Source: a candidate division Zixibacteria bacterium RBG_16_53_22 (GTDB taxonomy: Bacteria > Zixibacteria > MSB-5A5 > UBA10806). From it: 32,621 nt of DNA. The position numbers were made by a program, and so were the translations under genes. The DNA is taken from assembly GCA_001775395.1 (NCBI GenBank), contig MEWP01000112.1, positions 1 through 32,621 of the forward strand, read 5' to 3'. Position 1 is the first letter of the stretch. The number at the start of each line of letters is the position of its first letter. The notes beneath the pieces were generated by a model. That model did not search any database. It saw only the letters and a list, made by a program, of their open reading frames with translations, and was not told where the DNA came from. Below are positions 2-27,407 of the stretch, in pieces.

Positions 2-160
2 GAGCAGATCTATAGTCTGACTTCGCTGTGCACGTTCGAGGATCGTTTCGTCATCCCGCCATCACACCGCGAGGAGGCCATCGAGATGATGGAGGACCCG
101 TTAAATCACAAACAGGAAACAGGATTTGGGTTCCTCTCAGGGCCAAGGAGGGGGCAGTGA
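2..160 (+). CDS. narH: Nitrate reductase beta subunit NarH, C-terminal end (5' truncated by window)
   Basis: The frame is open from base 2 and ends at TGA 158-160, giving 52 residues that include CTFEDRFVIPPSHREEA. That stretch is typical of the C-terminus of NarH, the Fe-S electron-transfer subunit of membrane-bound nitrate reductase. The cluster-binding cysteines lie upstream of the window. The stop codon overlaps the GTG start of narJ by four bases, so the two are translationally coupled. Identification rests on this short tail plus the narJ-narI genes that follow. narG is inferred to lie further upstream but is not seen. Confidence 0.82.
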   Translation, partial: EQIYSLTSLCTFEDRFVIPPSHREEAIEMMEDPLNHKQETGFGFLSGPRRGQ

Positions 161-696
161 GCACCGAACTGCGGAGAATTCTGGATACCTTATCCGGCAT
201 TGTGTTCTATCCGATGGATAATTATAAGGCAAGAGTGAAGGACTGCCTGGATTCTCTGCAGGGAGAATCAACTCAAACAATTGAAAATATCAGAAAATTC
301 TGGAATGATGTCGACAATTTGCCCATAAATGATTTGAGGGAGTACTTCACCCGCACATTTGATATCAACCCGCTCTGTTCACTTGAGGTTGGATGGCAAC
401 TGTTCGGCGAAAATTACGATCGTGGAAATTTCCTGGTCGTCATGAGAAGAGAAATGCGGTGCATGGGACTGGCCGAATCCAGCGAACTTCCCGACCATTT
501 AACCCATGTGCTTCAGACATTGGGCCGCATGGAACCCGAAGCGGCGAGCGAATTCGCGTCGGCCTGTGTAATACCCGCGCTGATGAAAATGCTCGCGGGT
601 CTCGAGGGAAAAGGAAACTTATTTGAGCCCGCGCTCCAGGCAATCTCAAATATTGTGATGGATCACTTTGGAAATTCCAAGGGGGTGGCTAATTGA
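157..696 (+). CDS. narJ: Nitrate reductase assembly chaperone NarJ (TorD/DmsD family)
   Basis: This 179-residue, mostly helical soluble protein fits the NarJ/TorD redox-enzyme maturation chaperones, which bind apo-NarG and time insertion of the Moco. No membrane segment or signal peptide is seen. I chose GTG 157 because AAGGAGG (145-151) sits five bases upstream and because the start overlaps the narH stop in a GTGA junction. An open frame extends back to base 28, but that extension reads the narH tail in the wrong frame. The 3' end overlaps narI by four bases. Sequence in this family is weakly conserved, so the call leans on position between narH and narI as well as on length. Confidence 0.85.
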   Translation: MSTELRRILDTLSGIVFYPMDNYKARVKDCLDSLQGESTQTIENIRKFWNDVDNLPINDLREYFTRTFDINPLCSLEVGWQLFGENYDRGNFLVVMRREMRCMGLAESSELPDHLTHVLQTLGRMEPEAASEFASACVIPALMKMLAGLEGKGNLFEPALQAISNIVMDHFGNSKGVAN

Positions 697-1397
697 GCGC
701 TTTTCCAAACTACATTGATCAGTTCCTTCTGATGGTGCTTCCGTATGTGGCGTTTTTCACTTTCTTTTTGGTGACTATCCAGCGTTATCGCCTGCAATCA
801 TTCACTTATTCGAGTCTGTCGTCCCAGTTCCTTGAGAATGAGCATCACTTCTGGAGCCTGGTGCCGTTCCATTACGGCATCATTGCCGTCCTCGCTGGCC
901 ACCTGATCGGATTCCTGATACCAAGACAAGTGCTTCTCTGGAACAGCCATCCCCTGAGGCTCTTCGTCTTGGAACTTTCTGGCCTGATTTTCGGGGTTAT
1001 GGCCGTCCTGGGTATGGCCAGCATTATGATACGACGATTCACAATGCCGCGCGTCAGGGTGGTGACCTCGACCGCCGATTGGGTGCTATACATACTGCTA
1101 CTGTTCCAGGTTGTCGGCGGAGTGTATATCGCCGTCTTTTATCCCTGGGGATCATCGTGGTTTGCGGCGGCGGCCGCGCCCTACCTCTGGTCGCTTCTGA
1201 AACTCAATCCCGATATAAGCTACGTGGCCGCCCTGCCCGTCATGGTTAAATTGCATATTATCAACGCTTATCTCGTCATTGGGTTTTTCCCGTTTACGCG
1301 GTTGGTTCACGTTTTGGTGGCGCCTAATCCGTATCTCTGGCGCCGTCCGCAGGTAGTCAGATGGTATGGCAAGAGGAGTCAGGCGAGAAGGGCTTAA
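693..1397 (+). CDS. narI: Respiratory nitrate reductase gamma subunit NarI, diheme cytochrome b
   Basis: NarI anchors nitrate reductase in the membrane, oxidises quinol and passes electrons to NarH through two b hemes. The 234-residue protein has about five hydrophobic segments and matches the family length (225 in E. coli). The four heme ligands are visible with the spacing of E. coli NarI: His60 and His70 in FHYGIIAVLAGH (ten apart), and His188 and His206 (eighteen apart), the latter in FFPFTRLVHV. Translation starts at TTG 693, which overlaps the narJ stop by four bases; TTG is less common but no better start is nearby. The narK-actA fusion follows after seven bases. Confidence 0.93.
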   Translation: MSAFPNYIDQFLLMVLPYVAFFTFFLVTIQRYRLQSFTYSSLSSQFLENEHHFWSLVPFHYGIIAVLAGHLIGFLIPRQVLLWNSHPLRLFVLELSGLIFGVMAVLGMASIMIRRFTMPRVRVVTSTADWVLYILLLFQVVGGVYIAVFYPWGSSWFAAAAAPYLWSLLKLNPDISYVAALPVMVKLHIINAYLVIGFFPFTRLVHVLVAPNPYLWRRPQVVRWYGKRSQARRA

Positions 1398-1404
1398 AAG
1401 GCAG

Positions 1405-3393
1405 ATGGCCGATCTCAAGGGAACTCCGAATCAGGCGCTTCTTGGCGCTACCATAGGCTTCTTTTCGGGTTTTGCGGCGGTGGCTTTATTCGGTCCGACT
1501 GCCGGCAGGTTCCAGGATGTGCTTAAGCTCGACCCCGTGTTAATCGGATTTCTAATTGCCATGCCTTCACTTTCGGGATCGCTTCTGCGGATTCCGTTTT
1601 CGGCCTGGGTCGATACTGCCGGCGGCAGAAAACCGTTCATCGTCTTGCTGTTGCTTTCAATACTCGGGATGTTGGGCCTTTTCCTGGTAGTGCATTTCCT
1701 TTATCCCGAAAAATTAACTCCGAACTTGTATCCGCTGCTTCTGCTCTTGGGTCTATTGTGCGGTTGCGGCATTGCCACTTTCTCGGTAGGAATCAGCCAG
1801 GTTTCTTACTGGTTTCCTCAGAAAAGACAGGGTAGCGCTCTGGGCGCTTATGGCGGAATTGGTAATCTAGCCCCGGGGATTTTCTCATTTGCCCTGCCTA
1901 TCGCGTTGACCTCCTGGGGGCTGGCCGGATCGTACCTGGCCTGGTTGCTTTTCCTGATAATTGGCACATTGCTATACGTCTTGATAACAAGAAATTCCTA
2001 TTACTTTCAGCTTATCAAGAAGGGCCACGGCGCCTCCGAGGCCCGTCGGCTGGCGGGCGAACGATCGCAAGAGCTATTTCCCACGGGAAAAGTTAGAGAA
2101 AGCCTTCGTATTTCAGCCAGCATCTGGAAAACGTGGGCGCTTGTTGGAATCTATTTCGCGACCTTCGGTGGATTTATCGCGCTTACCGCATGGCTTCCGA
2201 CCTATTGGAAGTCATTCCATGAGGTAAGTGCGGTTACGGCCGGAATGCTGACCGCGCTATATTCGATTCTGGCCTCGGTTATGAGGGTGGCCGGCGGCAC
2301 GATCGCTGACAGGCTGGGTGGGGAACGGACAATTATGCTGTCGCTGACTGTAATGCTTGTCGGTGCGGTCCTTATGGCGACGACGGGCAATTTCAATTTA
2401 TCCATTGCGGCAGAGATAATTCTGGCAATGGGCATGGGAATCACCAATGCTGCTGTTTTCAAGCTCGTTCCCCAAGAAGTGCCTCAAGCGGTCGGAGCCA
2501 CCGCTGGATGGGTCGGTGGCCTGGGGGCTTTTGGAGGTTTTGCGATTCCCCCGGTAATGAGCCTCTTCGTAAGCGGACTGGGCAAGAAAGGGTATATCAG
2601 CGGCTTCTTGGTGTTCGTGGCGCTGGCTGCCATAGGGATCTTGTTAGCCTGGATTTTGGAACGCGCCCGGCAGAAGGAAATTGCTGCAGTTTCTGTTCGG
2701 AATTTATCTTTTCGGGAGCGCAAGGCGGAACGCGGCTCCAGTGGCGGAAGGATCGTAACAATTACAATATCGACTGGCCTACTCTTCAGCGTTATTGTGC
2801 TAATGCCAGGGGTTGGAGCCTACCGGCTGCCTGGAAACCAGAAGGGGTATGAACCTAATCAGCCTATAGACTTCTCGCATCGGCTCCACGCCGGAGAGAT
2901 GCAGATTCCATGTCTTTATTGCCACTCGAGCGCCGAGACGAGCCGTTACGCCGGAATTCCAACGGCTGGCACTTGCATGAATTGCCATAAATTTGTTACC
3001 GCGGCGCTGGGCGCTGTAAGAGCCGAGGACGAACTAGCCGCCAAGGAAAACCGCGATCCGCGTAGGGTGGTCTCACTGGAACTAAAGAAATTATACCAGG
3101 CCCTCGGGCTCGATGAGAATTTGAACCGTGGTTCTGCAGCCGATTCCCGGCCCATCGAATGGACTAAGGTTCACAACGTGCCGGATTTTGTTTATTTCAA
3201 TCATAGTTCGCACGTCAATGTCGATGTGGCCTGTCAGACCTGCCACGGCCCGGTGGAGACGATGGAGCGGGTCAGGCAGGTCGAGTCACTTTCCATGGGA
3301 TGGTGCGTCAACTGCCACCGTGACGCAAATACTAACGGCCTGAACGGCCGCGCAGTGAAGGCCTCGATAGACTGCGCCGCGTGTCACTTTTGA
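1405..3393 (+). CDS. NarK-type nitrate/nitrite transporter fused to pentaheme cytochrome ActA of alternative complex III
   Basis: Residues 1 to about 440 form a twelve-helix MFS transporter of the NarK nitrate/nitrite family. Two glycine-rich segments, GAYGGIGNLAPG and GWVGGLGAFGGF, correspond to the paired nitrate-signature helices. A basic linker (near FRERKAERGSSGGR) leads into a thirteenth hydrophobic helix. A periplasmic cytochrome domain follows with five CXXCH heme motifs, at Cys503, 524, 610, 634 and 657. Five c hemes plus an N-terminal anchor helix describe ActA of ACIII, which normally is a separate gene at the head of an act operon. I see no stop codon and no convincing internal start at the junction. 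With the MFS C-terminus in the cytoplasm, the extra helix places the hemes correctly in the periplasm. ATG 1405 is chosen over ATG 1366, which would overlap narI. A lost stop codon through an assembly error is the main alternative. Confidence 0.88.
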   Translation: MADLKGTPNQALLGATIGFFSGFAAVALFGPTAGRFQDVLKLDPVLIGFLIAMPSLSGSLLRIPFSAWVDTAGGRKPFIVLLLLSILGMLGLFLVVHFLYPEKLTPNLYPLLLLLGLLCGCGIATFSVGISQVSYWFPQKRQGSALGAYGGIGNLAPGIFSFALPIALTSWGLAGSYLAWLLFLIIGTLLYVLITRNSYYFQLIKKGHGASEARRLAGERSQELFPTGKVRESLRISASIWKTWALVGIYFATFGGFIALTAWLPTYWKSFHEVSAVTAGMLTALYSILASVMRVAGGTIADRLGGERTIMLSLTVMLVGAVLMATTGNFNLSIAAEIILAMGMGITNAAVFKLVPQEVPQAVGATAGWVGGLGAFGGFAIPPVMSLFVSGLGKKGYISGFLVFVALAAIGILLAWILERARQKEIAAVSVRNLSFRERKAERGSSGGRIVTITISTGLLFSVIVLMPGVGAYRLPGNQKGYEPNQPIDFSHRLHAGEMQIPCLYCHSSAETSRYAGIPTAGTCMNCHKFVTAALGAVRAEDELAAKENRDPRRVVSLELKKLYQALGLDENLNRGSAADSRPIEWTKVHNVPDFVYFNHSSHVNVDVACQTCHGPVETMERVRQVESLSMGWCVNCHRDANTNGLNGRAVKASIDCAACHF

Positions 3394-3405: not shown

Positions 3406-6400
3406 ATGTCCGCGGAGAAGATAGAAAAATACTGGAAGGCTACGGGGCAGGCGGACCGGCCGAAAGGGGCCGCCTCGCCCGATGAATTCCCCGCCCTCAT
3501 CGAGAAGTTTGACTCGCCGCAGAGCCGACGGGGTTTCCTGCGGATCGCCGGCTTTACTTTCGCCGGGGCGGTTGTAGCAGGGTGCAGCCGGGCGCCTGTC
3601 GAAAAAGCCATTCCTTACCTGGTAAAACCCGAGGAGATCACGCCGGGCGTGGCGTATTATTATGCCTCGACCTGCGGTGGCTGCAGCGCTGGATGTGGCA
3701 TTTTAGTTAAAAACCGCGACGGTCGTCCGGTCAAGCTCGAGGGCAATAAAGCCCACCCGATATCACGTGGCGGCCTTTGTGCTATCGGCCAGGCCTCGAT
3801 CCTGGGATTATACGACAGCCAGAGATATAAAGGGCCCCAGATCGGGGGCAGTGACGCAAGCTGGGATCAGACTGATTCGCAAATCGTGGGCGAACTTGAA
3901 AAGATAAGAACGTCGGGAGGCGCGGTAAGGCTGTTGAGCGGTACGATCACAAGCCCTACGGCTCTGGCCACGATAGATAAGTTTCTGGGGCGGTTTTCCG
4001 ATGCCCGGCATGTGGTCTATGACCCCCTTTCCGTCTCGGCCATCCTCGATTCCCATTTGCGTACGCACGGCATCCGCACACTGCCGCGGTACCAATTCGA
4101 AAAAGCCGATGTGATCGTAAGTTTCGACGCCGATTTCCTTGGCACCTGGATATCACCTGTGGAATTTTCCAAGGCGTATAGGAATGGCCGCAACCTCGAG
4201 GCCGATCGTTCAAAGTTTTCTTATCATGCGCAGTTCGAATCTCGCATGTCTCTGACCGGCAGCAAGGCCGACAAACGATATTGCGTTCCGCCGGGCGAAA
4301 TCGGAGCAATCATGACTCAATTGTTTTTCGCGGTATCCGGACTGGCAGGACGCAGCGAGGGCATCGCCGATGCGCAATCATCCGTGTCGCGGGAAACCAT
4401 TGATAGAATCGCAGGAAGGCTCTGGCGTTCGCGCGGCAATAGCCTCGTCGCGTGCGGGGCTCATGATGTTCGCGTCCAGATAATTTGCAATGCCATAAAC
4501 GAGCTACTGGGTAATTACGGGAATACTGTCGACATCGAAAATCCATCGAATCAATTTCAAGGTAACGATTCGGAACTCGCCAAGCTGACCGGGGAAATAA
4601 AATCCGGCAGTGTCGATGCGCTCTTAATCTATGACGTTAATCCGGTCGCCGAGCTTCCGGGGGGTGAGGAATTGGCGAAAGCGGTAGCGGATATCCCACT
4701 CACGGTGAGCTTTTCCTCCAGGCCCGACGAGACAGCCTTGATAGTCAGGTATATCTGCCCGGATCATCACTTCCTGGAATCCTGGAGCGACTCGGAACCG
4801 GTGGTGGGTACTTTCGGCTTGACGCAGCCGGTAATACATCCGATTTTCAAAACGCGACCATTTATAGAGAGCCTGTCGAAATGGTCCGGCTCCAATAAAG
4901 CTTCTCACGACCTTATAAGGGACCGCTGGAGGGAGGAAATCTTTCCGAGAAACAACGAGTTTCGAACATTCGAAACTTTCTGGGATAGGGCTGTGCATGA
5001 TGGCTTTGTCGATTTCAAAGCCTCCAGATCGATCCAGCATAAATTTGATTTTGCCGAAGTCGAGCCGGTTGTTAAGGCTGATTACGGGAGCGGCGCCCTG
5101 GCCCTTGTGTTATATCCGAAAGTCGGCATGGCGGATGGCCGCCACGCATATAATCCCTGGCTTCAGGAGCTTCCCGACCCGATCACCAAAATCACCTGGG
5201 ACAATTACGCCTGCATTTCGCCGTCGCTTGGCGAAAAGCTCGGCCTGGAGCAGGGCGATCTTGTCAATATACAGTCCGGCGACGGGTTGGCATCGATGGA
5301 CCTGCCCGTGGTCATCCAGCCGGGCCAGGACGCGAATACGATAGCGGCAGCGCTCGGCTATGGTCGGATCCAATCGGAGCGTTTCAAGGATATTGGGCCG
5401 AAATGGTTTCAGAAACGTTCGGGCGTTGGCGACAATAGCCGGGTTGGGGAAAACATGACGCCTTTCCTAAAATTTCGGGACGGCAACCTGCGATATTCTT
5501 TGCATGACATAGTGATTGCCAAGACCGGAAAAAAACGCGCGCTGGCCTCGACCCAGAACCATCATGACATCAGGGTATCGGAAAACATCCTACTGAAGGG
5601 CCACGAGCCTCACCCCATAATCCAGGAAATCGCCCTTTCCGATTTGCATCATGGAAGCCATGCCCCTGGCCAGCATCATCGCGAGGATCTCTGGCCACCC
5701 GATCACCAGTATACGGGCCACAAATGGGGCATGACGCTTGACCTCGAGGCCTGTACGGGGTGCTCGGCCTGCCTGGTCTCCTGTCAGGTGGAAAACAATA
5801 TCCCGGTGGTCGGCAAAGATGAGGTGGCCCGCGGGCGCGAGATGCATTGGATCAGGATCGACCGCTACTACATCAGTGATGGCGATGAAGTGGAAGTGGC
5901 CTTTCAACCGATGATGTGCCAGCAGTGCGATAATGCTCCCTGCGAAACCGTCTGCCCGGTCCTGGCCACGATCCATAGCGAGGAAGGATTAAATCAACAG
6001 GTCTACAACCGCTGCGTGGGGACCCGTTATTGCGCCAACAATTGCCCGTACAAGGTCCGCCGCTTCAACTGGTTCGATTACCCTCATGAAGACAAATTGC
6101 AAAACCTGGTGCTAAATCCGGATGTTACTGTCCGCAGCCGCGGCATAATGGAAAAATGCACGTTTTGCGTGCAGAGGATACAAAGCGCCAAAATCGATGC
6201 CAGGAATCGTGGCAATGTCATCAACGATGGCGATTTTGCTACTGCCTGCGAACAAGCCTGCCCGGCCGATGCCATAACTTTCGGCGATTTGAATGATCCG
6301 CAAAGCCGCATAAGCCGTCTGGCGGCCGGCGCCCGGGCCTACCGGGTGCTCGATGAGTTGAATGTCAAGCCGGCTGTCACATATTTGAAAATCGTACGGA

Positions 6401-6423
6401 ATGACGAGAATGAGAAAAGTTGA
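3406..6423 (+). CDS. actB: Alternative complex III subunit ActB: Tat-exported molybdopterin-oxidoreductase-like domain fused to four-cluster Fe-S domain
   Basis: ActB is the large periplasmic iron-sulfur subunit of ACIII and relays electrons within the quinol:cytochrome c oxidoreductase. A Tat motif, SRRGFLRIAGF (Arg41-Arg42), is followed by VAGC ending at Cys60, a possible lipidation site. Residues 75-750 resemble the molybdopterin oxidoreductase fold (B1 domain), which in known ACIII carries no molybdenum. Residues 775-1000 form the ferredoxin-like B2 domain, with cysteine motifs beginning CTGCSACLVSC (Cys783) and continuing CQQCDNAPCETVC, CVGTRYCANNC, CTFC and CEQAC, enough for four clusters. 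The B1 domain keeps a complete set, Cys90, 93, 97 and 125. AGGAG precedes ATG 3406, twelve bases past the actA stop. At 1005 residues it is the usual fused ActB length. The end overlaps actC by 23 bases. Confidence 0.93.
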   Translation: MSAEKIEKYWKATGQADRPKGAASPDEFPALIEKFDSPQSRRGFLRIAGFTFAGAVVAGCSRAPVEKAIPYLVKPEEITPGVAYYYASTCGGCSAGCGILVKNRDGRPVKLEGNKAHPISRGGLCAIGQASILGLYDSQRYKGPQIGGSDASWDQTDSQIVGELEKIRTSGGAVRLLSGTITSPTALATIDKFLGRFSDARHVVYDPLSVSAILDSHLRTHGIRTLPRYQFEKADVIVSFDADFLGTWISPVEFSKAYRNGRNLEADRSKFSYHAQFESRMSLTGSKADKRYCVPPGEIGAIMTQLFFAVSGLAGRSEGIADAQSSVSRETIDRIAGRLWRSRGNSLVACGAHDVRVQIICNAINELLGNYGNTVDIENPSNQFQGNDSELAKLTGEIKSGSVDALLIYDVNPVAELPGGEELAKAVADIPLTVSFSSRPDETALIVRYICPDHHFLESWSDSEPVVGTFGLTQPVIHPIFKTRPFIESLSKWSGSNKASHDLIRDRWREEIFPRNNEFRTFETFWDRAVHDGFVDFKASRSIQHKFDFAEVEPVVKADYGSGALALVLYPKVGMADGRHAYNPWLQELPDPITKITWDNYACISPSLGEKLGLEQGDLVNIQSGDGLASMDLPVVIQPGQDANTIAAALGYGRIQSERFKDIGPKWFQKRSGVGDNSRVGENMTPFLKFRDGNLRYSLHDIVIAKTGKKRALASTQNHHDIRVSENILLKGHEPHPIIQEIALSDLHHGSHAPGQHHREDLWPPDHQYTGHKWGMTLDLEACTGCSACLVSCQVENNIPVVGKDEVARGREMHWIRIDRYYISDGDEVEVAFQPMMCQQCDNAPCETVCPVLATIHSEEGLNQQVYNRCVGTRYCANNCPYKVRRFNWFDYPHEDKLQNLVLNPDVTVRSRGIMEKCTFCVQRIQSAKIDARNRGNVINDGDFATACEQACPADAITFGDLNDPQSRISRLAAGARAYRVLDELNVKPAVTYLKIVRNDENEKS

Positions 6424-7783
6424 CGCGATCTCGATATATCCGCCCCCTCTGATCGGCGGACATAAGACTCCCCGGGATGTCACGGCGGATATCGCCGCCC
6501 CGATCGGCCGGCGACCATCGGCTTTGTGGTGGACAGGGTTTGCATTTTCGTTTGCCCTGATGTGTGTGGGGATAGCGGCCGAGACCTACCAGATAAAAAC
6601 CGGCATCGGCACCTGGGGGCTGAATAAGACTATCGGCTGGGCGTTCGATATAACTAATTTTGTCTTCTGGATTGGTATCGGGCATGCCGGAACGCTGATC
6701 TCAGCTATCCTGTTCTTGTTAAATCAAAAATGGCGCACGTCTGTCAATCGCTCGGCCGAGGCCATGACTATCTTCGCGGTCATCTGCGCCGGCATCTTTC
6801 CCGTCATCCATATGGGCCGCCCCTGGTTGGCTTTCTGGATGCTGCCATACCCCAATACGCGGGGTTCACTATGGGTGAATTTCCGTTCCCCTCTCGTCTG
6901 GGATTTCTTCGCCATCGCAACGTACTTCACGATATCGCTGACCTTCTGGTATGTCGGCCTTCTTCCGGACCTGGCGACAATCAGGGACCGCAGCAGGCCG
7001 GGTCTCAAGAAGCGAATTGTGGGTTTTCTCAGCCTGGGTTGGAACGGCTCGTACAAAACCTGGCTTCGTTACGAAACGGTTTACTTGCTCCTGGCGGGGC
7101 TGGCCACGCCGCTGGTGGTCTCTGTGCACACCATTGTCAGTTGGGATTTCGCGACCTCGATCGTTCCCGGATGGCATACAACCATCTTTCCGCCCTACTT
7201 TGTGGCCGGGGCGATATTTTCCGGCATGGCTATGGTATTGACCTTGATAATCGTGGCTCGAAAGGCGATGAATCTTGAGGATTATATCACCAAACGTCAT
7301 ATCGGGGCCATGGCGAAAATCATAATTTTTACCAGCGGCATGGTTGGGCTGGCTTACGCCACCGAGTTTTTCATAGCCATGTATTCGGGAAATCAATATG
7401 AGCAATACGTATTTTTCAACCGCGCTGCCGGGCCGCTTAGCTGGGCTTACTGGACTATGGTTGCCTGTAATGTCGCGGTACCTCAGCTTTTGTGGTTCAG
7501 GAAAGTGCGCGATAATTTGGCCTTGGTCTTCGCGATCTCGATTCTCATCAATGTCGGCATGTGGTTTGAGAGATTCGTCATAATCGTCACCTCGCTTTCG
7601 CGCGATTACCTGCCTTCGAGCTGGGCAAGCTACTCTCCGACCATAATAGAAATCGCCACCTTCGCCGGCACTTTCGGTCTGTTTTTCACGCTCTTTCTCC
7701 TCTTCTGCCGCTTTTTGCCGGTGATCGCTATCAGCGAGGTCAAAGGCGTCTTAGGCATCGGGCGTAAACGGGGGGTATCTTGA
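6401..7783 (+). CDS. actC: Alternative complex III subunit ActC, NrfD-family quinol-binding membrane protein
   Basis: This 460-residue, strongly hydrophobic protein fits the NrfD/PsrC family, whose ACIII member ActC is an integral membrane subunit with about ten helices and a quinol-oxidising site facing the periplasmic Fe-S subunit. A soluble N-terminal stretch of about 45 residues precedes the first helix. The ATG at 6401 lies inside the end of actB; a second ATG at 6410 is an equally possible start. The 3' end overlaps actD by four bases. Order directly after actB and before a DUF3341 protein is diagnostic of act operons. Confidence 0.92.
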   Translation: MTRMRKVDAISIYPPPLIGGHKTPRDVTADIAAPIGRRPSALWWTGFAFSFALMCVGIAAETYQIKTGIGTWGLNKTIGWAFDITNFVFWIGIGHAGTLISAILFLLNQKWRTSVNRSAEAMTIFAVICAGIFPVIHMGRPWLAFWMLPYPNTRGSLWVNFRSPLVWDFFAIATYFTISLTFWYVGLLPDLATIRDRSRPGLKKRIVGFLSLGWNGSYKTWLRYETVYLLLAGLATPLVVSVHTIVSWDFATSIVPGWHTTIFPPYFVAGAIFSGMAMVLTLIIVARKAMNLEDYITKRHIGAMAKIIIFTSGMVGLAYATEFFIAMYSGNQYEQYVFFNRAAGPLSWAYWTMVACNVAVPQLLWFRKVRDNLALVFAISILINVGMWFERFVIIVTSLSRDYLPSSWASYSPTIIEIATFAGTFGLFFTLFLLFCRFLPVIAISEVKGVLGIGRKRGVS

Positions 7784-8307
7784 ACCAGCGATACCTGATC
7801 GGTATTTTCGAACGAGAGGAAGATATCCTGTCTGCGACGAATGCCTCCCGCCTGCATGGATTTGTCATATCCGATGTCTACGCGCCTTACGCGGTCCATG
7901 GCCTGGACAAAGCGATTGGCCTTTCGCCTTCGCGACTTCCATGGGTCTGTTTCCTGCTTGGCCTTCTGGGAGCGGCTCTTAAAGTATGGTTCGAATTCTG
8001 GACAACGGGAATCGACTGGCCGGTTAATGTTGGCGGCAAGCCCTGGAATTCATTGCCGGCTTTCGTGCCTGTCACATTCGAGGTTATGGTGTTCTTTGCC
8101 GGAGTAAGCACCGTGATCGCATTTCTGTTCGTCAGCCGGCTCTGGCCCGGGGCCAGGGCGCCGCTGGCCGACCGCGGCGTAACCGACAATAGGTTCGTTC
8201 TGATTCTTGAGGACACCGGCCCGGCATTCGATCAAGACAGGGCCCGGGAGATTTTCAAAAAATCTAACGCCGTCGATATCGAGGAGAGGGTGGAGACTAC
8301 TAGATGA
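7780..8307 (+). CDS. actD: Alternative complex III subunit ActD (DUF3341 family)
   Basis: ActD is a small ACIII subunit with no cofactor and two transmembrane helices. The 175-residue product matches. It has an N-terminal cytoplasmic domain (YLIGIFEREEDILSATNASR), two hydrophobic segments separated by a short loop containing NVGGKPWNSLPAFVP, and a C-terminal soluble tail. The NVGGKP-NS-P-F-P pattern is typical of the family. Translation begins at TTG 7780 overlapping the actC stop by four bases, and the gene ends overlapping actE by four bases, so it is co-translated with its neighbours. Confidence 0.9.
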   Translation: MNQRYLIGIFEREEDILSATNASRLHGFVISDVYAPYAVHGLDKAIGLSPSRLPWVCFLLGLLGAALKVWFEFWTTGIDWPVNVGGKPWNSLPAFVPVTFEVMVFFAGVSTVIAFLFVSRLWPGARAPLADRGVTDNRFVLILEDTGPAFDQDRAREIFKKSNAVDIEERVETTR

Positions 8308-8867
8308 ATTTCGGGAAGACGAATATCATCTTATTGTTGGCGTTCACAGTAAGCCTTGTCGCGAATTGGGCAATCCGCCCGAACCTATCGAAGCCCAATG
8401 TTGAATACTTTCCCAATATGGCCCGATCGGTGCCGTATGATGCCTTCTCGTATAATCCCAATTTTGTCGATGGCATGACACTTCGGGAGCCGGTCGAAGG
8501 AACGATTGTTTACGGCCGGATGCCACTGCATTATGGGGCTGATACCCTCGAAGCGATACGCGCTGGAGAGGAGTTAACCAATCCCTATTCCCATGATGAT
8601 ACGACCTCACAGGCCAGGGGTGCCGCTTTGTATGGGACCTTTTGTCAAACCTGCCACGGCGCCTCAGGCGTTGGTGATGGCCCTGTGGCCCAAAGAGGTT
8701 ACCCTCCGCCCCCACCATTGAAATCGGAGAGGGCGATCGGCATGAAGGACGGCCGCATGTTTCATATCATTACTTTCGGGCAGGGGAATATGCCGCCCTA
8801 CGCATCGCAAATATCGAGAGAGGATAGATGGAAGATCGTATTGCATCTTCGGTCGCTTCAGGAATAA
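8304..8867 (+). CDS. actE: Alternative complex III subunit ActE, membrane-anchored monoheme cytochrome c
   Basis: ActE is the monoheme cytochrome c of ACIII, probably handing electrons to a soluble carrier or terminal enzyme in the periplasm. The 187-residue protein starts with one hydrophobic helix (residues 7-24) and then carries the N-terminal ActE signature SVPYDAFSYNPNF. The heme site is CQTCH, and a likely axial methionine lies in GQGNMPPYA. No lipobox cysteine is visible, so the helix probably stays as an anchor; described ActE proteins are often lipoproteins. ATG 8304 overlaps the actD stop by four bases. The gene runs 40 bases into actF. Confidence 0.92.
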   Translation: MNFGKTNIILLLAFTVSLVANWAIRPNLSKPNVEYFPNMARSVPYDAFSYNPNFVDGMTLREPVEGTIVYGRMPLHYGADTLEAIRAGEELTNPYSHDDTTSQARGAALYGTFCQTCHGASGVGDGPVAQRGYPPPPPLKSERAIGMKDGRMFHIITFGQGNMPPYASQISREDRWKIVLHLRSLQE

Positions 8868-10054
8868 TCGGAGTTGAATCTAATGGCAACCTCGCCGGGC
8901 GATTCAGCCCTGATCGCGACCTCAGGCGCGTGCTCTACGCTCTGGGAGTAGCCGGTGGCGCGGCTTTCGTGATTGGGGCTGCGATTTCCGCGCTTCATGC
9001 CTGGCGGGCGCTACTGATGTCGAGTTTTCTGCTTATCTCATTTGGTCTGGCCGCGACGCTCTTTATCGCCATTCAGTACGTCACCGGCGCCGCCTGGTGC
9101 GTAGCAATACGCAGGGTTCCCGAGGCCATCTCGTCCGTCATCCCCTGGGCCGCGTTGGGGATTGCCGCCGTAATCATCGTGAAGCCCGATATCTACCCCT
9201 GGTCGGCACAACCGGAGATGTTTTCGGAGGCGGCCTGGTTCAAACGCCTTTGGTTGAGCCAGCCCTTCTTCACGGCTCGCACCATCCTCTACCTATTAAG
9301 CTGGATAATAATATCGCGGGCAATTGTTCGAAATTCGCGGCTGCAGGACGACACCGGCGACATCGCCTATACCCGGAAAAATATCAGGCTTTCGGCGCTG
9401 TTTGTTGCCCTGTTTGCGGTGACTTTCTGCCTTGCCAGTTTCGATTGGATCATGTCGCTCGAACCCGAATGGTACAGCACCATCTTTGCCGTCTACAATT
9501 TCGCCGGGCTATTTGTCGGGGGGTTGGCGGCCATTATTATCTTGACTGTCTGGATGGACCGGCTTGGCCCCCTAAGGGGAATCTTGAACCGCGAACACCT
9601 GCACGATCTGGGGAAATTGCTTTTTGCCTTCAGCACCTTCTGGATGTACATCTGGTTCAGCCAGTACATGCTGATCTGGTATACGAACTTCCCGGAGGAA
9701 ACGGTCTATTATTTAAGGCGAATCGAAGGCGCATGGGGTACCCTGTTTGTGCTGAACATGTTTCTGAACTGGGTTGTGCCTTTTCTGGCCTTATTGCCGA
9801 AAGCCACCAAAAGAAACCCCTCGGCCCTGATAAAAGTCGCCTATGTGGTCGTTGCGGGACGGATCCTGGATTTATACCTGATGATCGCCGCTCCGTTTGC
9901 CAATGGTGGGCCGAAGATTGGGATTATTGAACTTGTTATGATCCTGGGTTCACTAAGCTTGTTCTTATTAATTTTTATTAAGGCCTTTCGAAATGCCAAT
10001 TCTTTCCCGACTGGAGATCCTTTTTTGGCCGAAAGCCGGCATTATCACAGGTAA
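8828..10054 (+). CDS. actF: Alternative complex III subunit ActF, large membrane subunit
   Basis: ActF is an integral membrane subunit of ACIII, distantly related to ActC and proposed to take part in proton translocation. The 408-residue product has about ten hydrophobic segments and the conserved stretch FSTFWMYIWFSQYMLIWYTN, characteristic of ActF. ATG 8828 lies 40 bases inside actE and is preceded by GAGAGG; the start cannot move much downstream without losing the N-terminal tail. This is the last gene of the respiratory operon. In many genomes cytochrome oxidase genes come next, but here a riboswitch and molybdenum genes follow. Confidence 0.92.
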   Translation: MEDRIASSVASGIIGVESNGNLAGRFSPDRDLRRVLYALGVAGGAAFVIGAAISALHAWRALLMSSFLLISFGLAATLFIAIQYVTGAAWCVAIRRVPEAISSVIPWAALGIAAVIIVKPDIYPWSAQPEMFSEAAWFKRLWLSQPFFTARTILYLLSWIIISRAIVRNSRLQDDTGDIAYTRKNIRLSALFVALFAVTFCLASFDWIMSLEPEWYSTIFAVYNFAGLFVGGLAAIIILTVWMDRLGPLRGILNREHLHDLGKLLFAFSTFWMYIWFSQYMLIWYTNFPEETVYYLRRIEGAWGTLFVLNMFLNWVVPFLALLPKATKRNPSALIKVAYVVVAGRILDLYLMIAAPFANGGPKIGIIELVMILGSLSLFLLIFIKAFRNANSFPTGDPFLAESRHYHR

Positions 10055-10282: not shown

Positions 10283-10798
10283 ATGATGATCGAAAAGAAT
10301 GAAAATCTCGAAGACCGATTTACAGTGGCAATACTAATCGCCAGTGACAGGGCGGCCGGGGGAATACGGCCCGATTCCACCGGGCCGGCGCTAAAAAAAT
10401 GTCTGGAGGAGGCCGGATTTTACGTCCAATTTTACAGTGTCGTTGCCGACGACGAAGGGGCGATCAGTGCCGCTATCAGGAATTGGGCTTATGAAGATGG
10501 AGTCAACGTGATACTGACATCGGGCGGAACGGGCCTGGGTCCGCGAGATGTGACTCCTGAGGCGACGCTTAAAGTCATTGGAAGACGCGTCCCCGGGCTG
10601 GAAGAAGCCATGAGACATGCGTCGGTCAAGATTACCCCAAATGCCATGCTCTCGCGGGCGGTAGCCGGCACCGCCGCCAACAGCCTGATAATCAACCTGC
10701 CGGGCAGTTCGAAGGGCGCTGTCGAGAATTTCAAAGTGGTCGAGCCTGCCCTGCGCCACGCTATCGAGCTTATTATTGGAAGAAAGCCTGACCCATGA
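10283..10798 (+). CDS. moaB: Molybdopterin adenylyltransferase (MoaB/MogA family)
   Basis: Proteins of this family bind molybdopterin and adenylate it with ATP, preparing it for metal insertion by MoeA. The 171-residue product has the MoCF-biosynthesis fold, with SDRAAGG near the N-terminus, the conserved LTSGGTGLGPRDVTPEAT block, and the later NLPGSSKGA loop, all hallmark substrate-binding segments. Two start codons lie side by side, ATG 10283 and ATG 10286; AGAGGTG (10274-10280) fits the second slightly better. It is the first gene of the molybdenum operon and overlaps moaA by four bases. MoaB and Mog cannot be cleanly separated from sequence alone. Confidence 0.93.
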   Translation: MMIEKNENLEDRFTVAILIASDRAAGGIRPDSTGPALKKCLEEAGFYVQFYSVVADDEGAISAAIRNWAYEDGVNVILTSGGTGLGPRDVTPEATLKVIGRRVPGLEEAMRHASVKITPNAMLSRAVAGTAANSLIINLPGSSKGAVENFKVVEPALRHAIELIIGRKPDP

Positions 10799-11802
10799 TG
10801 ATTCGAAGGAATGAGGGGCCTCGCGCGTTGATAGATTCATTCGGCCGGGCCATTACATATCTGCGGGTTTCCCTGACAGACAAGTGTAACATGAAATGCG
10901 GCTATTGTTACGCGTCGACCGCACGCGATACCGCCATAACACCAGAGCTTGATAATAAAGGGCTGCTGACACCGATTCGGGCCTTCGCGTCTCTTGGTGT
11001 CAACAAAGTGCGCTTCACTGGAGGAGAACCGCTTCTGCGGCGCGGAATAGTCGAGCTTGTGGCGCACACGAGGGAGATAGCCGGCATCTCCATAATCGGA
11101 GTAACGACCAACGGGCTATTGGCGGAGCGCAATCTCGCTCGCCTCATAGATGCCGGTCTCAATCGCATAAATATCAGCCTTGACACCCTTAATCGCCACA
11201 GGTTCAAGGCCATAACCGGTGTCGACGGTTTCGACCGCGTAGGGGCAGGCATAGAGGCGGCCGTCTCATCCGGCGCTTTCTCCCAGGTAAAGGTAAACAC
11301 GGTGGTGATGCGAGGGATTAACGATGATGAGCTTCGGGCGCTCGCGGAATGGGCGATTGGCCGGGGTATCGACATCCGCTTCATAGAGTTCATGCCAACC
11401 GAGAAATCGGGCTGGAGCCGCGAGAGATTTGTGGGCGAGGTAGAAATGCGATCTAAGATCGGGTTAGAACTTATACCTGTATCTGAGGAGGGTAACAGCC
11501 GTGGGCCGGCGACGACTTATAAATATAAGGACTTGCCGGGGCGGGTGAGTTTTATATCGGCCGTAAGCTGCAGCTTCTGTGATAATTGCAATCGTCTGAG
11601 GCTGACATCAAAAGGAGAAGTCATTGGCTGCCTGTTCCAGGAGGACAAAATGGATCTTGGCCAGATGATCCATAAGGGCGCCTCGATCGGGGAAATCTCC
11701 CAGCGGATCGTTGAGGCGGTTGCCAGGCCCGGTTTCAGGAGGCAGCCCGATGATGTCTCAATTACCAGCTATAAACCTCTAATGAAGGCGGTCGGCGGAT
11801 GA
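10795..11802 (+). CDS. moaA: GTP 3',8-cyclase MoaA, radical SAM
   Basis: MoaA converts GTP to 3',8-cyclo-GTP, the first committed step of molybdopterin synthesis. The 335-residue protein shows the radical SAM motif CNMKCGYC (CX3CX2C), the SAM-binding FTGGEPLLR segment, and a second Fe-S site in [12 protein letters not shown] with a further cysteine in VIGCLFQ. It ends in the C-terminal Gly-Gly that MoaA needs for activity. ATG 10795 overlaps the moaB stop, and the 3' end overlaps moaC, each by four bases. Length is normal for the family. Confidence 0.97.
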
Positions 11803-12281
11803 GCAAAAAGCGATTGACACATATCAATGACAGGGGAAAGGCCAGGATGGTAGATATTTCGGGCAAGAGAGATTCAAAGCGCACTGCGATAGCCGAGGGC
11901 CGGGTGGTAATCTCGCCGGAATTGTTACATCAACTTAAAGATAATACGCTGGCCAAGGGGGATGCGCTGGCCGTCGCCAGGGTGGCCGGCATCCAGGCGG
12001 CCAAAAGGACAGCGGACCTTATCCCGCTTTGTCATCCTCTCCCGCTATCATCAGTTGAGGTTGACCTGAGGCTCGAGGATGAACCGCCGGCCGTAGTTAT
12101 AATCTCGAAGGTTAGCACGACCTACAAGACCGGCGTAGAGATGGAGGCCTTGACGGTAGCAAGCGTGGCAGCGCTTACCATCTACGACATGGGTAAGGCC
12201 GTTGATAAGGGCATGACGATCGAAAACATCCGGTTGCTGGAAAAAAGAGGCGGCAAAAGCGGGCATTGGAAACGAAGATGA
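11799..12281 (+). CDS. moaC: Cyclic pyranopterin monophosphate synthase MoaC
   Basis: MoaC turns 3',8-cyclo-GTP into cyclic pyranopterin monophosphate, following MoaA. The 160-residue product carries MVDISGK near the N-terminus, the [10 protein letters not shown] block, [18 protein letters not shown], and the catalytic [10 protein letters not shown] with its Asp and Lys residues. The stop overlaps the start of the following transporter by four bases. Nothing unusual is seen. The later enzyme molybdopterin synthase (MoaD/MoaE) is not encoded here. Confidence 0.97.
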
Positions 12282-13465
12282 AACACTGGCTTGAAAAGAG
12301 AAACCTATTTTTCTCAAATGGAGACATTAATGGCTCCTTGGGAGATATGGGCACATTTATCCCGCTGGCCGTGGGGCTGGTTAGCCGTTGCGGTTTTAAT
12401 CTCGGGCATATTCTTTTGTTCGCGGGAGGAGCGAATATTGCAGGTGGCCTGCTATTCGGTCTTCCGATGCCGGTGCAACCAATGAAGGCGATTGCCTCGA
12501 TAGCAATCGCCGAGGGAATGAAGGCCGATACGATAATGGCGGCCGGCATAACAAGTGGCCTGGTGCTGCTTTTTCTATCTCTTACCGGCTTATTTGGTTA
12601 TTTTTACCGGATTGTTCCCAAGACGCTTATTCGCGGCCTGCAGCTGGCGATCGGCTTGAAGCTTATGCTCGGCGGGCTGGATATGATTAAAACATCGGGC
12701 CTGAACCTGGAATTAAACTCAATTTATATTTCTCTGGCTTGTTTTATCGTCATAACGGTTTCCCTTTCCAACAAAAATATTCCTGGTGTTATGATTTTGT
12801 TTTTGGCGGGTGTCTTGATAGCGCTCTATTCGATACCTGAATCGGAAGCGGCCCTCTCGTTTGGTTCATCTTTGCCAACACTGCGGATTCCCGAATTGAG
12901 GGAGCTTACAGACGGTTTTATCCGGGCGGCCATGCCGCAGATTCCGTTGACCGTGCTCAATTCCGTTATTGCTGTCAGTGCCCTATCGGTGGATTTATTC
13001 CCAAACCGTCCGCTGGCGCCAAGGGCAGTGGCGCTAAATGTAAGCGTCATGAACTTGATCGGTTGTCTTTTCGGTGGGATGCCGATGTGCAATGGAGCCG
13101 GAGGATTAGCCTCGCAATACAAATTCGGCGCTCGAAGCGGAGGAAGCGTGGTTTTTCTCGGGCTAATAATGATTTTGGCGGCTCTGGCGCTGGGCAATTC
13201 GCTTTTGGCTCTTTTCGCGGCGTTTCCGACCAGTGTGTTAGGGGTGCTGCTGGTTTTCAGTGGCCTGGAACTGGCGATTGTCTGCCGGGATCAATCCTCC
13301 GCAAAAGCGCGCACTACTGTTATACTGACCGCTGCTATATGCGTTACAATAAATACGGCAATTGGATTTGCGGCCGGATGGATAATCGCGGCTATGATGA
13401 TGGAGAGAGCGCGGAAGCCTGCTGAGTCACCACAGCCTGCTATTAGCGTGGAAGGAGGTATATGA
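12278..13465 (+). CDS. MOT1-type molybdate (or sulfate) transporter
   Basis: This 395-residue membrane protein has about ten hydrophobic segments and resembles the MOT1 family of molybdate transporters, relatives of SulP sulfate permeases without a STAS domain. Recognisable family segments are [19 protein letters not shown] at the start of the first helix and [20 protein letters not shown] in the third. Its place inside a moa-moe-mob operon makes molybdate the likely substrate, replacing ModABC, which is absent here. ATG 12278 is chosen because it forms an ATGA overlap with the moaC stop; a TTG twelve bases upstream is also open. No STAS or ATP-binding domain is present. Confidence 0.88.
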
Positions 13466-13932
13466 CCATCAATCAATGTTCCAAAATCGGGCGTGTGTTC
13501 AAAATCTCGATCTCACCGCAAAAAGGTCAGAAAAAGATGAATATCCCTGTTGCCACCATCCGGCAGGGATGCGGAATTGACGGCGACGCCCATTCGGAAA
13601 GCACTCGCCCACTGAGCCTTCTTCCGCTGGAGAGTTTCGCCAAATTGTGGCATCCGAGGCTACAGTTAAATCCCGGGGATTTTGCCGAGAATATAACTAC
13701 GGTTGGGCTTGACTTCTCACAATTCGCAGTTGGGTCCCGGTTGATGCTCGGGAACTCAATTGAAATCGAAATCACACAAATCGGTAAGATATGTCATAAC
13801 GGCTGTATCATAAGGGAGTTGGCCGGCGATTGCATCATGCCACGCGAGGGTGTATTCGCAAAAATTATAAGCGGAGGAGAACTGAAGGAAGGAGACCCGA
13901 TAAGGATGGTAAGCTCATATGATTACGCTTGA
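13462..13932 (+). CDS. MOSC-domain protein
   Basis: MOSC domains bind molybdenum cofactor and in several enzymes mobilise sulfur. This 156-residue stand-alone version shows the family features: a basic N-terminal segment, GIDGDAHSE, LNPGDFAENITT, SRLMLGNSIEIEITQIGKIC, and a conserved Cys-His pair in KICHNGC. Similar small MOSC proteins sit next to moaB or moeA in many genomes; their exact role is not established. AAGGAGG stands just before ATG 13462, which overlaps the transporter stop. The end overlaps moeA by 14 bases. Confidence 0.88.
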   Translation: MTINQCSKIGRVFKISISPQKGQKKMNIPVATIRQGCGIDGDAHSESTRPLSLLPLESFAKLWHPRLQLNPGDFAENITTVGLDFSQFAVGSRLMLGNSIEIEITQIGKICHNGCIIRELAGDCIMPREGVFAKIISGGELKEGDPIRMVSSYDYA

Positions 13933-15118
13933 TGAAGCGAAATGTTTTATCGACAACGGGGTAACCTCATTAAAGCCGGCGCTATTGCCGTTGCTCGATT
14001 CTGTCGGTTGCGCCCTGACTTGCGATATCATTGCCCCAATCAATGTCCCGGAGTTCGCGAGTTCCGCTATGGACGGCATTGCCTTCAAGTCGATGGACCT
14101 GAATGGAAACGGCCCCTGGAAATTGCCGATCCAGGAAACAATCGCCGCCGGTGATTATAGTCGTCAGCCGTTGAAATCCGGACACGCTGTAAAAATTATG
14201 ACCGGCGCGCCGTTGCCCCGCGGAGCCGACACAATAATGCCGGTCGAGTATGTTACGTTCGTGGATGGATGGGCGATTTTTAGTAGAAACGCCGCTGGCG
14301 AAGACCATGTCCGACCCTTGGGCGATGATATTAAGAAAGGACAAATCTTATGTAAGAATGGAGACATATTGAAACCGGTCGATCTGGGTGTCCTGGCTTC
14401 GCTTGGCATGAAAGATATCGAAGTTATCCCTCGGCCGAGAATTATGTTGCTCTCAACAGGATCCGAAGTGATCGAACCGGGAGTACAGCTTAACCCGGGG
14501 CAAATTTACGATTCCAATAATGTCGTCCTGCGTGCCCTGCTCGCCCGCGACAGCCACTTGTTCAATCCGGCCAAGCGTGTCATGAAAGATGACCCCGAAA
14601 TAGTCTCCGCCGAGCTATCCGATTGTCTCGAGCATTATGATATCGTTATCACCACCGGCGGAGTCTCAATGGGGGATTTCGATTTCATTCCTCAGGTGGT
14701 GCGGAAGCTCGGCGGCGAGATTGTCTTCCACAAAGTTGCCATAAAACCAGGCAAGCCCGTGCTCCTGGCGCGATTCGGAAGCAAGTGGCTGCTGGGACTG
14801 CCAGGCAACCCGGTCAGCGTCATTGCGGGATATCACCTTTTCGCCAGGAGAGTCATAGGCAGGCTGATGGGGCAGGCCTGCTCCCCTAGAGGTCGGCAAA
14901 CGGTGCTCGGATGTGACGTCTCCGTCCACGGCGACCGTCTCTGCCTGGTGGGCGCCAAATTCCAGGAATGCGCGGAAGGCCGCGTCATTTCCTTTCCTTC
15001 AAATCGCCAGAAAAGCAACAGGCTCTCCTCGATATCCGGCATTGATGGCTTTGTATTCATAGATGGCGGCACAAAGACGGTGCCTGCCGGAAGCGAGGTT
15101 TACGCTGAATGGTTGTGA
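13919..15118 (+). CDS. moeA: Molybdopterin molybdotransferase MoeA
   Basis: MoeA inserts molybdate into adenylated molybdopterin to give active Moco. The 399-residue protein has the family order: the N-terminal domain with FASSAMDGIAFK, the block IMTGAPLPRGADTIMPVE, then the MoCF domain with LLSTGSEVIEPG, TTGGVSMGDFDF and KPGKPVLLARFG, LLGLPGNPVSV, and a C-terminal beta-barrel. The start lies within the MOSC gene, and its 3' end overlaps mobA by ten bases. Length is typical and no residue of the usual motifs appears to be missing. Confidence 0.96.
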   Translation: MITLDEAKCFIDNGVTSLKPALLPLLDSVGCALTCDIIAPINVPEFASSAMDGIAFKSMDLNGNGPWKLPIQETIAAGDYSRQPLKSGHAVKIMTGAPLPRGADTIMPVEYVTFVDGWAIFSRNAAGEDHVRPLGDDIKKGQILCKNGDILKPVDLGVLASLGMKDIEVIPRPRIMLLSTGSEVIEPGVQLNPGQIYDSNNVVLRALLARDSHLFNPAKRVMKDDPEIVSAELSDCLEHYDIVITTGGVSMGDFDFIPQVVRKLGGEIVFHKVAIKPGKPVLLARFGSKWLLGLPGNPVSVIAGYHLFARRVIGRLMGQACSPRGRQTVLGCDVSVHGDRLCLVGAKFQECAEGRVISFPSNRQKSNRLSSISGIDGFVFIDGGTKTVPAGSEVYAEWL

Positions 15119-15681
15119 TCGTGACTTACCCTGATGTAACCGGTTTCATCATCGCCGGCGGCAAAAGCCGACGCATGGGCTTTGACAAGCGCCAGATTCG
15201 CGTCAACGGAGTCCCGCTTCTTGAACGCATGCGAAACCTGCTCCGCGATGTTTTGGGACGAGAACCGGTTTTCGTCGGTGACAATTTATCATCAACAGAT
15301 ATAAGCATCCTGCATGACGCAAAGGTCGATTGCGGGCCCGTTGGAGGGCTGGTAGCGGCGCTTGAGAACTGTCGTACGGAGTGGGCGCTAATCCTGGCTG
15401 TGGATTTGCCATACCTCTCGTCGATCGAGCTTGCGTTGCTTCTGGGGGCGAGAAATGAGAACTATGATGTCATACTATTCTCATCGGATGACCGCGTCGA
15501 GCCGCTGGCGGCGTTATACAACGCCAATAACGCCGAATTCTGGCGGGGCCGCCTCGAAAAGAAAGAGCTTTGCTTGCGAGATGGCTTCAAAAATCAAAGG
15601 TGCCTTACCGTCAAATTACAGGATGACAGTCGAGCTCTTGAGAATATCAATGAGCCGTGGCAGTTGGCGGGTCTGCTTTAG
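15109..15681 (+). CDS. mobA: Molybdenum cofactor guanylyltransferase MobA
   Basis: MobA attaches GMP to Moco to make the MGD form needed by NarG-type enzymes. The 190-residue product has the nucleotidyltransferase loop GFIIAGGKSRRMGFDK, where Gly-rich and Arg/Lys residues bind GTP, followed by GPVGGLVAAL and the metal-binding ILAVDLPYLS. These match MobA well. ATG 15109 overlaps moeA; an alternative GTG at 15115 is close. mobB follows after two bases. Presence of mobA fits the bis-MGD requirement of the nitrate reductase encoded upstream. Confidence 0.94.
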   Translation: MVVIVTYPDVTGFIIAGGKSRRMGFDKRQIRVNGVPLLERMRNLLRDVLGREPVFVGDNLSSTDISILHDAKVDCGPVGGLVAALENCRTEWALILAVDLPYLSSIELALLLGARNENYDVILFSSDDRVEPLAALYNANNAEFWRGRLEKKELCLRDGFKNQRCLTVKLQDDSRALENINEPWQLAGLL

Positions 15682-15683
15682 GG

Positions 15684-16199
15684 ATGAAAAAACCTGTATT
15701 TTTACAGATTGTCGGGCGTAAGAAAAGCGGCAAAACGACTTTAATAGTCGCCCTGACTGCGGAACTGACGGCCAGGGGATTTAAGCTCGGAACGGTCAAG
15801 CACACTTCCCATGACCACGAATTTGACCAGCCCGGCACAGATTCCTGGAAACATCGCAAGGCGGGGGCAGGCGGAACCTTCATTATATCACCCAATGAAT
15901 TTGTTATGCATACACGGAAACCCGATGCGATTGCAATCAAGGAAATAATGGATTTGGTCTTTGCGGGCATGGATATCGTGCTCTGGGAGGGCCGTAATGG
16001 GATCGACGTCGACAAGATCGAATGCGTTGGGCCGGGCAACAAGGCGATTTTCGGCTTAGATGATAAATTAATCGCCACCGTTAGTGAAAAAACGCAGGCA
16101 CCGAATCTGCCAAACTTCGCGCAATCGGAAATGAATAGTATCGTCGAGTGGATTCTTTCCCGATTAGACGTAAGCAATATCAGTTTTCCAGATAAATAG
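15684..16199 (+). CDS. mobB: Molybdopterin-guanine dinucleotide biosynthesis GTPase MobB
   Basis: MobB is a GTP-binding protein that assists MobA; it is not essential in E. coli. The 171-residue product begins with a P-loop, GRKKSGKTTL, followed by LGTVKHTSHDHEFDQPGTDS, a conserved MobB segment, then the KHRKAGA region and a later LWEGRNG. ATG 15684, two bases after the mobA stop, places the P-loop at residues 9-17 as usual; an in-frame GTG upstream would only add residues overlapping mobA. This is the last gene of the molybdenum operon. Confidence 0.93.
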   Translation: MKKPVFLQIVGRKKSGKTTLIVALTAELTARGFKLGTVKHTSHDHEFDQPGTDSWKHRKAGAGGTFIISPNEFVMHTRKPDAIAIKEIMDLVFAGMDIVLWEGRNGIDVDKIECVGPGNKAIFGLDDKLIATVSEKTQAPNLPNFAQSEMNSIVEWILSRLDVSNISFPDK

Positions 16200-22637: not shown

Positions 22638-22884
22638 AGTTCCTCCACGGTGGGGCAATTAAACAACACCATCTCACGTTTCTTTGCGGATGACAGTGGT
22701 TATGCATATAGTGAAAGCTCGAGTCTCGCTGAAACAAGCGCATGCGGCCGCAAAATTAGCTTCAAGTAGAAATCCAAACACCACTTAGGACCTCAGGCAA
22801 AAGGGAAAAGCAAAGAAGACTATTCAGTTTTCGTTAGGCGGTATCCCAATCGTTCCAAAGGTGTCAAAACAAAGATGCAGAATA

Positions 22885-22912
22885 AATATAGCAAAGGATT
22901 GTGATTTGACAA
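22885..22912 (-). promoter_or_regulatory. Possible promoter of the CARDB gene
   Basis: TTGTCA and TATATT on the minus strand are spaced by 16 bases, each close to sigma-70 consensus. Transcription would begin near 22878. FCB bacteria such as Bacteroidetes often use a different promoter consensus, so this rests on sequence resemblance alone. Confidence 0.4.
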
Positions 22913-22930
22913 GCGAATAAATTAAACTTC

Positions 22931-22953
22931 GCCACTAACTCGGGGTTAGTGGC
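22931..22953 (-). terminator. Hairpin likely ending the lipoprotein transcript
   Basis: GCCACTAAC and GTTAGTGGC form a perfect nine-pair stem with loop TCGGG. On the minus strand it is followed by GAAGTTTAATTTATT, T-rich but not a clean run. It lies about 140 bases past the stop of the repeat lipoprotein gene. Confidence 0.5.
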
Positions 22954-23089
22954 AATAGCGCAGAGCCGCCCTTTCGCGCGGCCGCATCAAACCCTATGTC
23001 TGTCTAAATTCCTGTGAACCGAAACACTTAAACACTACTCAACAGACAGGTATTTGAGCATCTGGCCATAGGCACCGTCGCCGAAGAAA

Positions 23090-23719: not shown

Positions 23720-23870
23720 AACGCATCTCCTGTTTTTAATGAGTATGCTAATTTTACAATCCTCTCCACACAGGCTGGCGTATTCCAAAACCGCTTGCTT
23801 CTTCCTGAGGGCTAAAGTCTCTTTAAGCGTCATGTTAACCTCCCTGAGCCTCCCTTAATATACAAATCAA

Positions 23871-23899
23871 ATTGTCCCAGAGGGTCTGATATATCTACA
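23871..23899. repeat. 29-base direct repeat, copy 2
   Basis: This is identical to 16393-16421 and in the same orientation. It lies between the divergent lipoprotein and LVIVD genes, 18 bases upstream of the -35 box of the latter. Read on the minus strand, both copies can encode VDISDPLGQ in one frame, but neither has a start codon, so identity at DNA level is the better description. Confidence 0.85.
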
Positions 23900-23916
23900 G
23901 CTGGTCAAAATATATC

Positions 23917-23944: not shown

Positions 23945-24006
23945 ATCAAAACCACCGTCCTTTTCAATTCGCTAGACTGTCACAAGCTAACCGTAGGAGC
24001 CTGTTT

Positions 24007-27368: not shown

Positions 27369-27407
27369 GCCCCCATTTGCACCACCATTAATATGGCAAT
27401 TTAGCGC

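Follow-up and report, generated by a model that had tools for sequence, protein, structure and literature searches.

An open reading frame joining a NarK-like transporter to the pentaheme cytochrome ActA looks like a recent gene merger within a nar-ACIII cluster

The window, i.e. the whole stretch of 32,621 nucleotides analyzed here, carries on its forward strand at 1405-3393 one stop-free frame of 662 codons (662 aa), in which a NarK-family transporter (residues 1-418, 12 helices) continues via a 31-residue basic linker into the anchor helix and the five CXXCH motifs of ActA, with actB-F next in line. The fused gene looks like the outcome of a recent merger; the nitrate-respiration cluster around it is widespread. 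In our view narK and actA, which lie side by side in a nar cluster linked to alternative complex III (nar-ACIII) and presumably acquired from an Acidobacteriota-like source, have probably been truly fused in this lineage only, which would tether NarK to ACIII. The initial annotation of this DNA knew of no described NarK-ActA fusion, and none was found in the literature searched. The features of the cluster are as follows.

28..696, + strand: narJ, nitrate reductase assembly chaperone (TIGR00684, E 1e-12, below cut-off; narJ homologues precede narI in relatives; the contig begins here)
693..1397, + strand: narI, nitrate reductase gamma subunit (PF02665, E 2e-57; TIGR00351 above cut-off)
1405..2658, + strand: NarK-like MFS domain of the fusion (residues 1-418, 12 TM helices; MFS_1 and TIGR00886 matches, fold match to NarK 4u4t)
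2659..2751, + strand: linker (residues 419-449, 9 K/R; AGT at 2740-2742; narK stop absent)
2752..2808, + strand: ActA N-terminal anchor helix, 13th TM helix of the fusion (hydropathy; aligned with ActA N-termini of relatives)
2809..3393, + strand: ActA periplasmic pentaheme domain with five CXXCH (PF14522/PF02085; PDB ActA 6btm/8k9e/6f0k/6lod)
3406..6423, + strand: actB, molybdoenzyme-like B1 and ferredoxin-like B2 (PDB ActB matches; twin-Arg RR41-42, lipobox Cys60)
3673..3780, + strand: CxxCx3Cx27C [4Fe-4S] motif, Cys90/93/97/125, in the ActB B1 domain (PF04879)
6401..7783, + strand: actC, NrfD-like quinol subunit (PF03916; PDB ActC)
7780..8307, + strand: actD (PF11821, E 1e-53)
8304..8867, + strand: actE, monoheme cytochrome c (PF13442)
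8828..10054, + strand: actF, second NrfD-like subunit (position and homology in relatives; the listed start overlaps actE, the true start is probably further 3')
10283..16199, + strand: moaB, moaA, moaC, MOT1 molybdate transporter, MOSC, moeA, mobA and mobB (Pfam; directly after actF)

The single polypeptide of NarK, anchor helix and pentaheme ActA had been proposed by the initial annotation, and both its composition and its coordinates are corroborated by the stop-free frame together with Pfam, NCBIfam and PDB matches. A start at 1366 is possible as well; in the relatives, NarK starts at the position matching 1405. Pfam assigns residues 17-382 to MFS_1 (E 1e-34) and residues 476-661 to cytochrome c7/c3, and the NarK family TIGR00886 of NCBIfam matches residues 11-378 with E 3e-51, which is below its curated cut-off. 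In a PDB sequence search the N-terminal part retrieved NarK/NarU, and the C-terminal part the ActA subunits of four ACIII structures (6btm, 8k9e, 6f0k and 6lod). An AlphaFold model was confident for the MFS part (pLDDT mostly 85-98) and poor for the linker and the heme part; Foldseek returned NarK/NarU as top fold matches of this model, with NarK 4u4t as the closest. The CXXCH motifs lie at residues 503, 524, 610, 634 and 657. Both halves are conserved domains with about 50-68% identity to homologues, which rules out a chance open frame at 1405-3393. Furthermore, the transporter part carries the two substrate arginines in LLRIPF (Arg62) and VMRVAGG (Arg294) and the nitrate-signature glycine motifs of TM5 and TM11, GGIGNLAPG and GGLGAFGG. 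Arg62 and Arg294 presumably correspond to the nitrate-binding Arg89 and Arg305 of E. coli NarK. Judged by these motifs and matches, the N-terminal half is a NarK-family transporter with predicted nitrate/nitrite transport activity.

As seen in the hydropathy profile, the MFS helices are followed by the 31-residue linker with nine K/R, a single helix and then the five CXXCH. This agrees with the topology suggested beforehand, in which 12 helices leave the linker on the cytoplasmic side, for which its nine K/R are fitting, and one further helix carries the hemes to the periplasm. The C-terminal half has what is expected of an ActA, i.e. five CXXCH, an N-terminal anchor helix and a position adjoining actB-F; a separate actA gene with its own start, which is usual and not strictly defining, is lacking in the fusion.

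All six ACIII genes, actABCDEF, are present, and the nar genes lie directly upstream in the order narJ, narI, narK-actA, actB-F, so that the ACIII context claimed for the fusion is borne out by actB-F downstream of it. The moa, moe and mob genes and MOT1 are, by their domain assignments, a molybdenum cofactor supply beside the nar/act operon. No narH was found in the assembly of 169 contigs (96% complete), and the contig break falls inside the nar operon. Presumably narC, narG and narH are off the contig, narG and narH having been lost at the break, and a nitrate reductase is presumed from narJ and narI. The same assembly encodes a second, ordinary ActA on another contig (C18). A dockerin-type domain from the right half of the contig matches many contigs of this assembly at about 70-87% identity, and the contig is thus well binned. 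Downstream of the cofactor genes, 16423-17478 on the reverse strand encodes a 351-aa class II tRNA synthetase-like protein, which comprises the AsnS catalytic core only and scores far below the AsnS cut-offs. Large proteins, secreted and with kelch, CARDB and repeat beta-propeller parts, are encoded at 17979-32316; a dockerin-like domain at their C-terminus recurs on dozens of the genome's contigs.

In all 28 distinct close homologues (Acidobacteriota and one Planctomycetota) a stop ends narK and ActA begins with an ATG of its own. In 28/28 close narK-actA pairs this ATG precedes a conserved residue, usually an Arg, by exactly three codons. The narK stop is found at -15 to +8 nt relative to this ATG, and the two often overlap as ATGA; the exception is locus L034 with -102. 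A fused NarK-ActA frame occurred in none of the 80 loci retrieved from genome contigs and was found neither in 58 relatives nor in 132 genomes of the window's phylum. The same was true for 257 genomes of a Bryobacterales-type order and for 396, 392 and 395 genomes from the phyla of G134, G137 and G136, respectively. Long ActA open frames in G1009, G858 and G1020 turned out to be off-frame readings of high-GC DNA with the MFS gene in another frame, and an 890-aa open frame in G139 (L034) had to be rejected as a fusion as it bridges a TAG. The initial annotation had named separate narK and actA genes in all close relatives as a finding that would refute the fusion, and this is exactly the arrangement in all relatives found, none of which joins the MFS and cytochrome domains in one frame. 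As a general feature the fusion is therefore not supported, whereas it holds for the present sequence: because neither the stop of narK nor the start of actA is left and no single-base edit restores two genes, the separate genes of the relatives point to a derived, lineage-specific fusion and not to an artefact.

In a maximum-likelihood tree of NarK and ActA the window and L034 are sisters (support 100/97), with the window on a long branch. In L034 narK and actA share one frame; between them lies a single TAG, which is followed by 34 more open codons and then the ATG. With respect to this arrangement an in-frame deletion, or loss of the stop with later decay of the start, would suffice for a fusion, and one of these routes may have merged narK and actA, the actA start having decayed after it was no longer needed. 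In three further loci (L033, L035 and L118) the two genes also share a frame and are parted by one TGA and a few codons, i.e. they are one mutation from a fusion. The nearest relatives of the window are Acidobacteriota and one Phycisphaerae MAG, and its ActA type was found in no other genome among the 132 of its phylum. Consequently, horizontal acquisition of the nar-ACIII cluster is likely.

A genuine fusion may have no functional meaning. The merger could simply have been tolerated, ActA needing only its anchor and NarK only its fold, and this neutral origin is quite conceivable, at slightly less than even chances overall and about as likely as a functional fusion. It fits the fact that a fusion arose once in about 30 adjacent pairs and lies one or two mutational steps from the sister state. 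The closest precedent, by analogy, is NarK1-NarK2 of Paracoccus denitrificans (PMC5217062), in which likewise adjacent nar-operon genes are fused with a linker after helix 12, but the partner is a second MFS domain and not a cytochrome. There the conserved linker residues of NarK are dispensable and the linker is apparently a mere tether (PMC5217062), which also suits a neutral merger. Against it stands the cost of having transporter and complex always made in a 1:1 ratio, should this be unwanted.

The fusion is known from the sequence of one MAG, and a lost base or a collapsed segment in the assembly could in principle have joined two separate, slightly overlapping genes. Where the relatives carry the actA ATG, the window has AGT (2740-2742), and the narK stop is missing. 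All single-base insertions, deletions and substitutions at 2665-2748 were evaluated for a nearby narK stop combined with a start for actA no more than 12 codons away from the conserved Arg. None of the 664 edits restored both, so that one base-calling error cannot account for the fusion. The uniqueness of the fusion among the relatives would suit an assembly or consensus error, as would a GTG at the conserved start position that is shifted by one frame; a one-base insertion at 2743-2747 would bring it exactly into place. This insertion, however, creates a narK-actA overlap of about 110 nt (narK extends 101 nt beyond the Arg codon), compared with at most 8 nt in the close relatives, none of which has such an overlap. 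Codon-frame scoring of the linker gave low scores for the fused frame and did not favour it, again in line with an error; on the other hand, a second copy of the junction, which might have led to a collapse, is absent from the source assembly, and the remaining genes of the cluster are all intact. Taken together, an error of this kind, a larger misassembly included, appears improbable, and the sequence evidence makes it likely that the fusion is real. An exact search for the junction in viral contigs returned nothing.

Between TTG 2656 and GTG 2797 no in-frame ATG, GTG or TTG is present, so anchored ActA can arise only within the fusion, except by initiation at a rare start or at TTG 2656. Two products from a real fused frame, the second being a separate ActA from a rare start or from cleavage of the chain, seem more improbable still: GGAAGG (2746-2751) just 5' of ATT/ATA codons at the anchor helix and the in-frame TTG at 2656 would allow them, but rare starts are uncommon and there is no ATG, GTG or TTG that keeps the anchor at the conserved position.

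The genuine fusion, which we prefer, would sit in a cluster of a kind that is already on record (PMC10732223): nar genes upstream of a six-gene, ACIII-like (NrfD/ActD) cluster were described there in 13 instances from Planctomycetota and KSB1 MAGs, with an NrfAH-like nitrite reductase as the guessed function of the six genes. Like the window, those loci have nar directly upstream of the ACIII-like genes; unlike it, they have a separate multiheme cytochrome and no NarK-ActA fusion, and the part consulted does not mention the cysteine motif of ActB dealt with below (PMC10732223). According to our analysis the six genes are actABCDEF, conserved in Acidobacteriota, Planctomycetota, Ignavibacteria, KSB1 and others with an ActC identity of 64-76%. 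Furthermore, in every nar-ACIII locus whose upstream DNA reaches far enough, narG is directly preceded by a NarC-like diheme cytochrome c, which was found before narG in 31 of the 33 nar loci checked, both exceptions lacking ACIII. One example is located at L049:1578-2603. In the literature searched this cytochrome of the nar-ACIII loci is apparently undescribed; it resembles the product of narC in narCGHJIKT of Thermus. The Thermus thermophilus operon (PMC6394727, PMC10609526) shares with the relatives studied here the order cytochrome c, narGHJI, MFS transporter, but as written there it is without ACIII genes.

In molybdoenzymes, CxxCx3Cx27C is the motif that belongs to the proximal [4Fe-4S] cluster. 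This FS0 motif is present in 83/83 nar-linked ActBs, among which some loci are duplicates of one genome, and Cys90/93/97/125 are invariant in all 55 aligned full-length nar-linked sequences. Only two of about 30 ordinary ActBs of this class have it, and it is missing from the three solved ActB sequences in the PDB alignments inspected. The B1 domain of Rhodothermus marinus ActB is without a prosthetic group (PMC5928083); for nar-linked ActB the four cysteines argue against such an empty B1 domain and for a putative cluster. The motif, apparently undescribed in the literature searched, suggests for nar-linked ACIII a subtype of its own, in which the FeS chain is longer. Two loci of the same class, L008 (G017) and L010 (G031), encode an ACIII-like ActB with the four-Cys motif and show no narI within their short length, possibly representing another ACIII subtype. 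ActB as a catalytic Mo/W-bisPGD molybdoenzyme was rejected, as a PF00384 match is absent and a Mo site not supported; PDB alignments of B1 to catalytic subunits of Mo-enzymes are limited to roughly residues 40-190.

Compared with the ACIIIs of R. marinus, Flavobacterium johnsoniae and Roseiflexus (6f0k, 6btm, 6lod; PMC5928083), the actA-F order, the pentaheme ActA with N-terminal anchor, the FeS cysteines of ActB B2 and the NrfD-like ActC are the same. In contrast to them, the window has a whole NarK at the ActA N-terminus, an ActB B1 that keeps CxxCx3Cx27C, missing from the aligned solved ActBs, and a location in a nar operon instead of beside an oxidase. ActA of F. johnsoniae (6btm_A, 444 aa) is already extended N-terminally. 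The anchor helix of R. marinus ActA stands by itself, is flexible and has contact with nothing but loops of ActC/ActD (PMC5928083), so that sterically a transporter could plausibly be carried at its cytoplasmic end.

Accepting a genuine fusion, the membrane-inserted protein would consist of 12 MFS helices, a cytoplasmic linker of basic character and the ActA anchor as 13th helix, with the five hemes in the periplasm and bound to ActB/ActE. Quinol would be oxidised by ACIII at ActC, and the electrons would pass from the membrane-near FeS cluster of ActB to the hemes of ActA, on to ActE and finally to an acceptor in the periplasm. NarK on its tether would meanwhile exchange nitrate and nitrite for NarGHI. 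The fusion would set a 1:1 ratio and hold the transporter beside ACIII. The initial annotation had proposed that nitrate/nitrite exchange would be tied physically to a quinol-oxidising complex; a functional tie to quinol oxidation, or an energetic coupling of transport and electron transfer, would be hypothetical. It is a rather remote prospect that nar-linked ACIII in general is a distinct nitrate-respiration complex with the extra ActB [4Fe-4S] cluster, the diheme NarC as partner and NarK bound to ActA in all members, covalently here, i.e. a supercomplex of transporter, nitrate reductase and quinol oxidoreductase.

Proteins working next to each other are often revealed by fusions of their genes. 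The covalent link between NarK and ActA accordingly suggests that the transporter may sit beside ACIII in the widespread nar-ACIII clusters, a supercomplex that can be tested. The wider cluster of diheme cytochrome c, NarGHI, NarK and an ACIII with the extra ActB FeS motif bears on the role of ACIII outside oxygen respiration, and with it on a published claim (PMC10100899) according to which ActB has a role solely in aerobic respiration.
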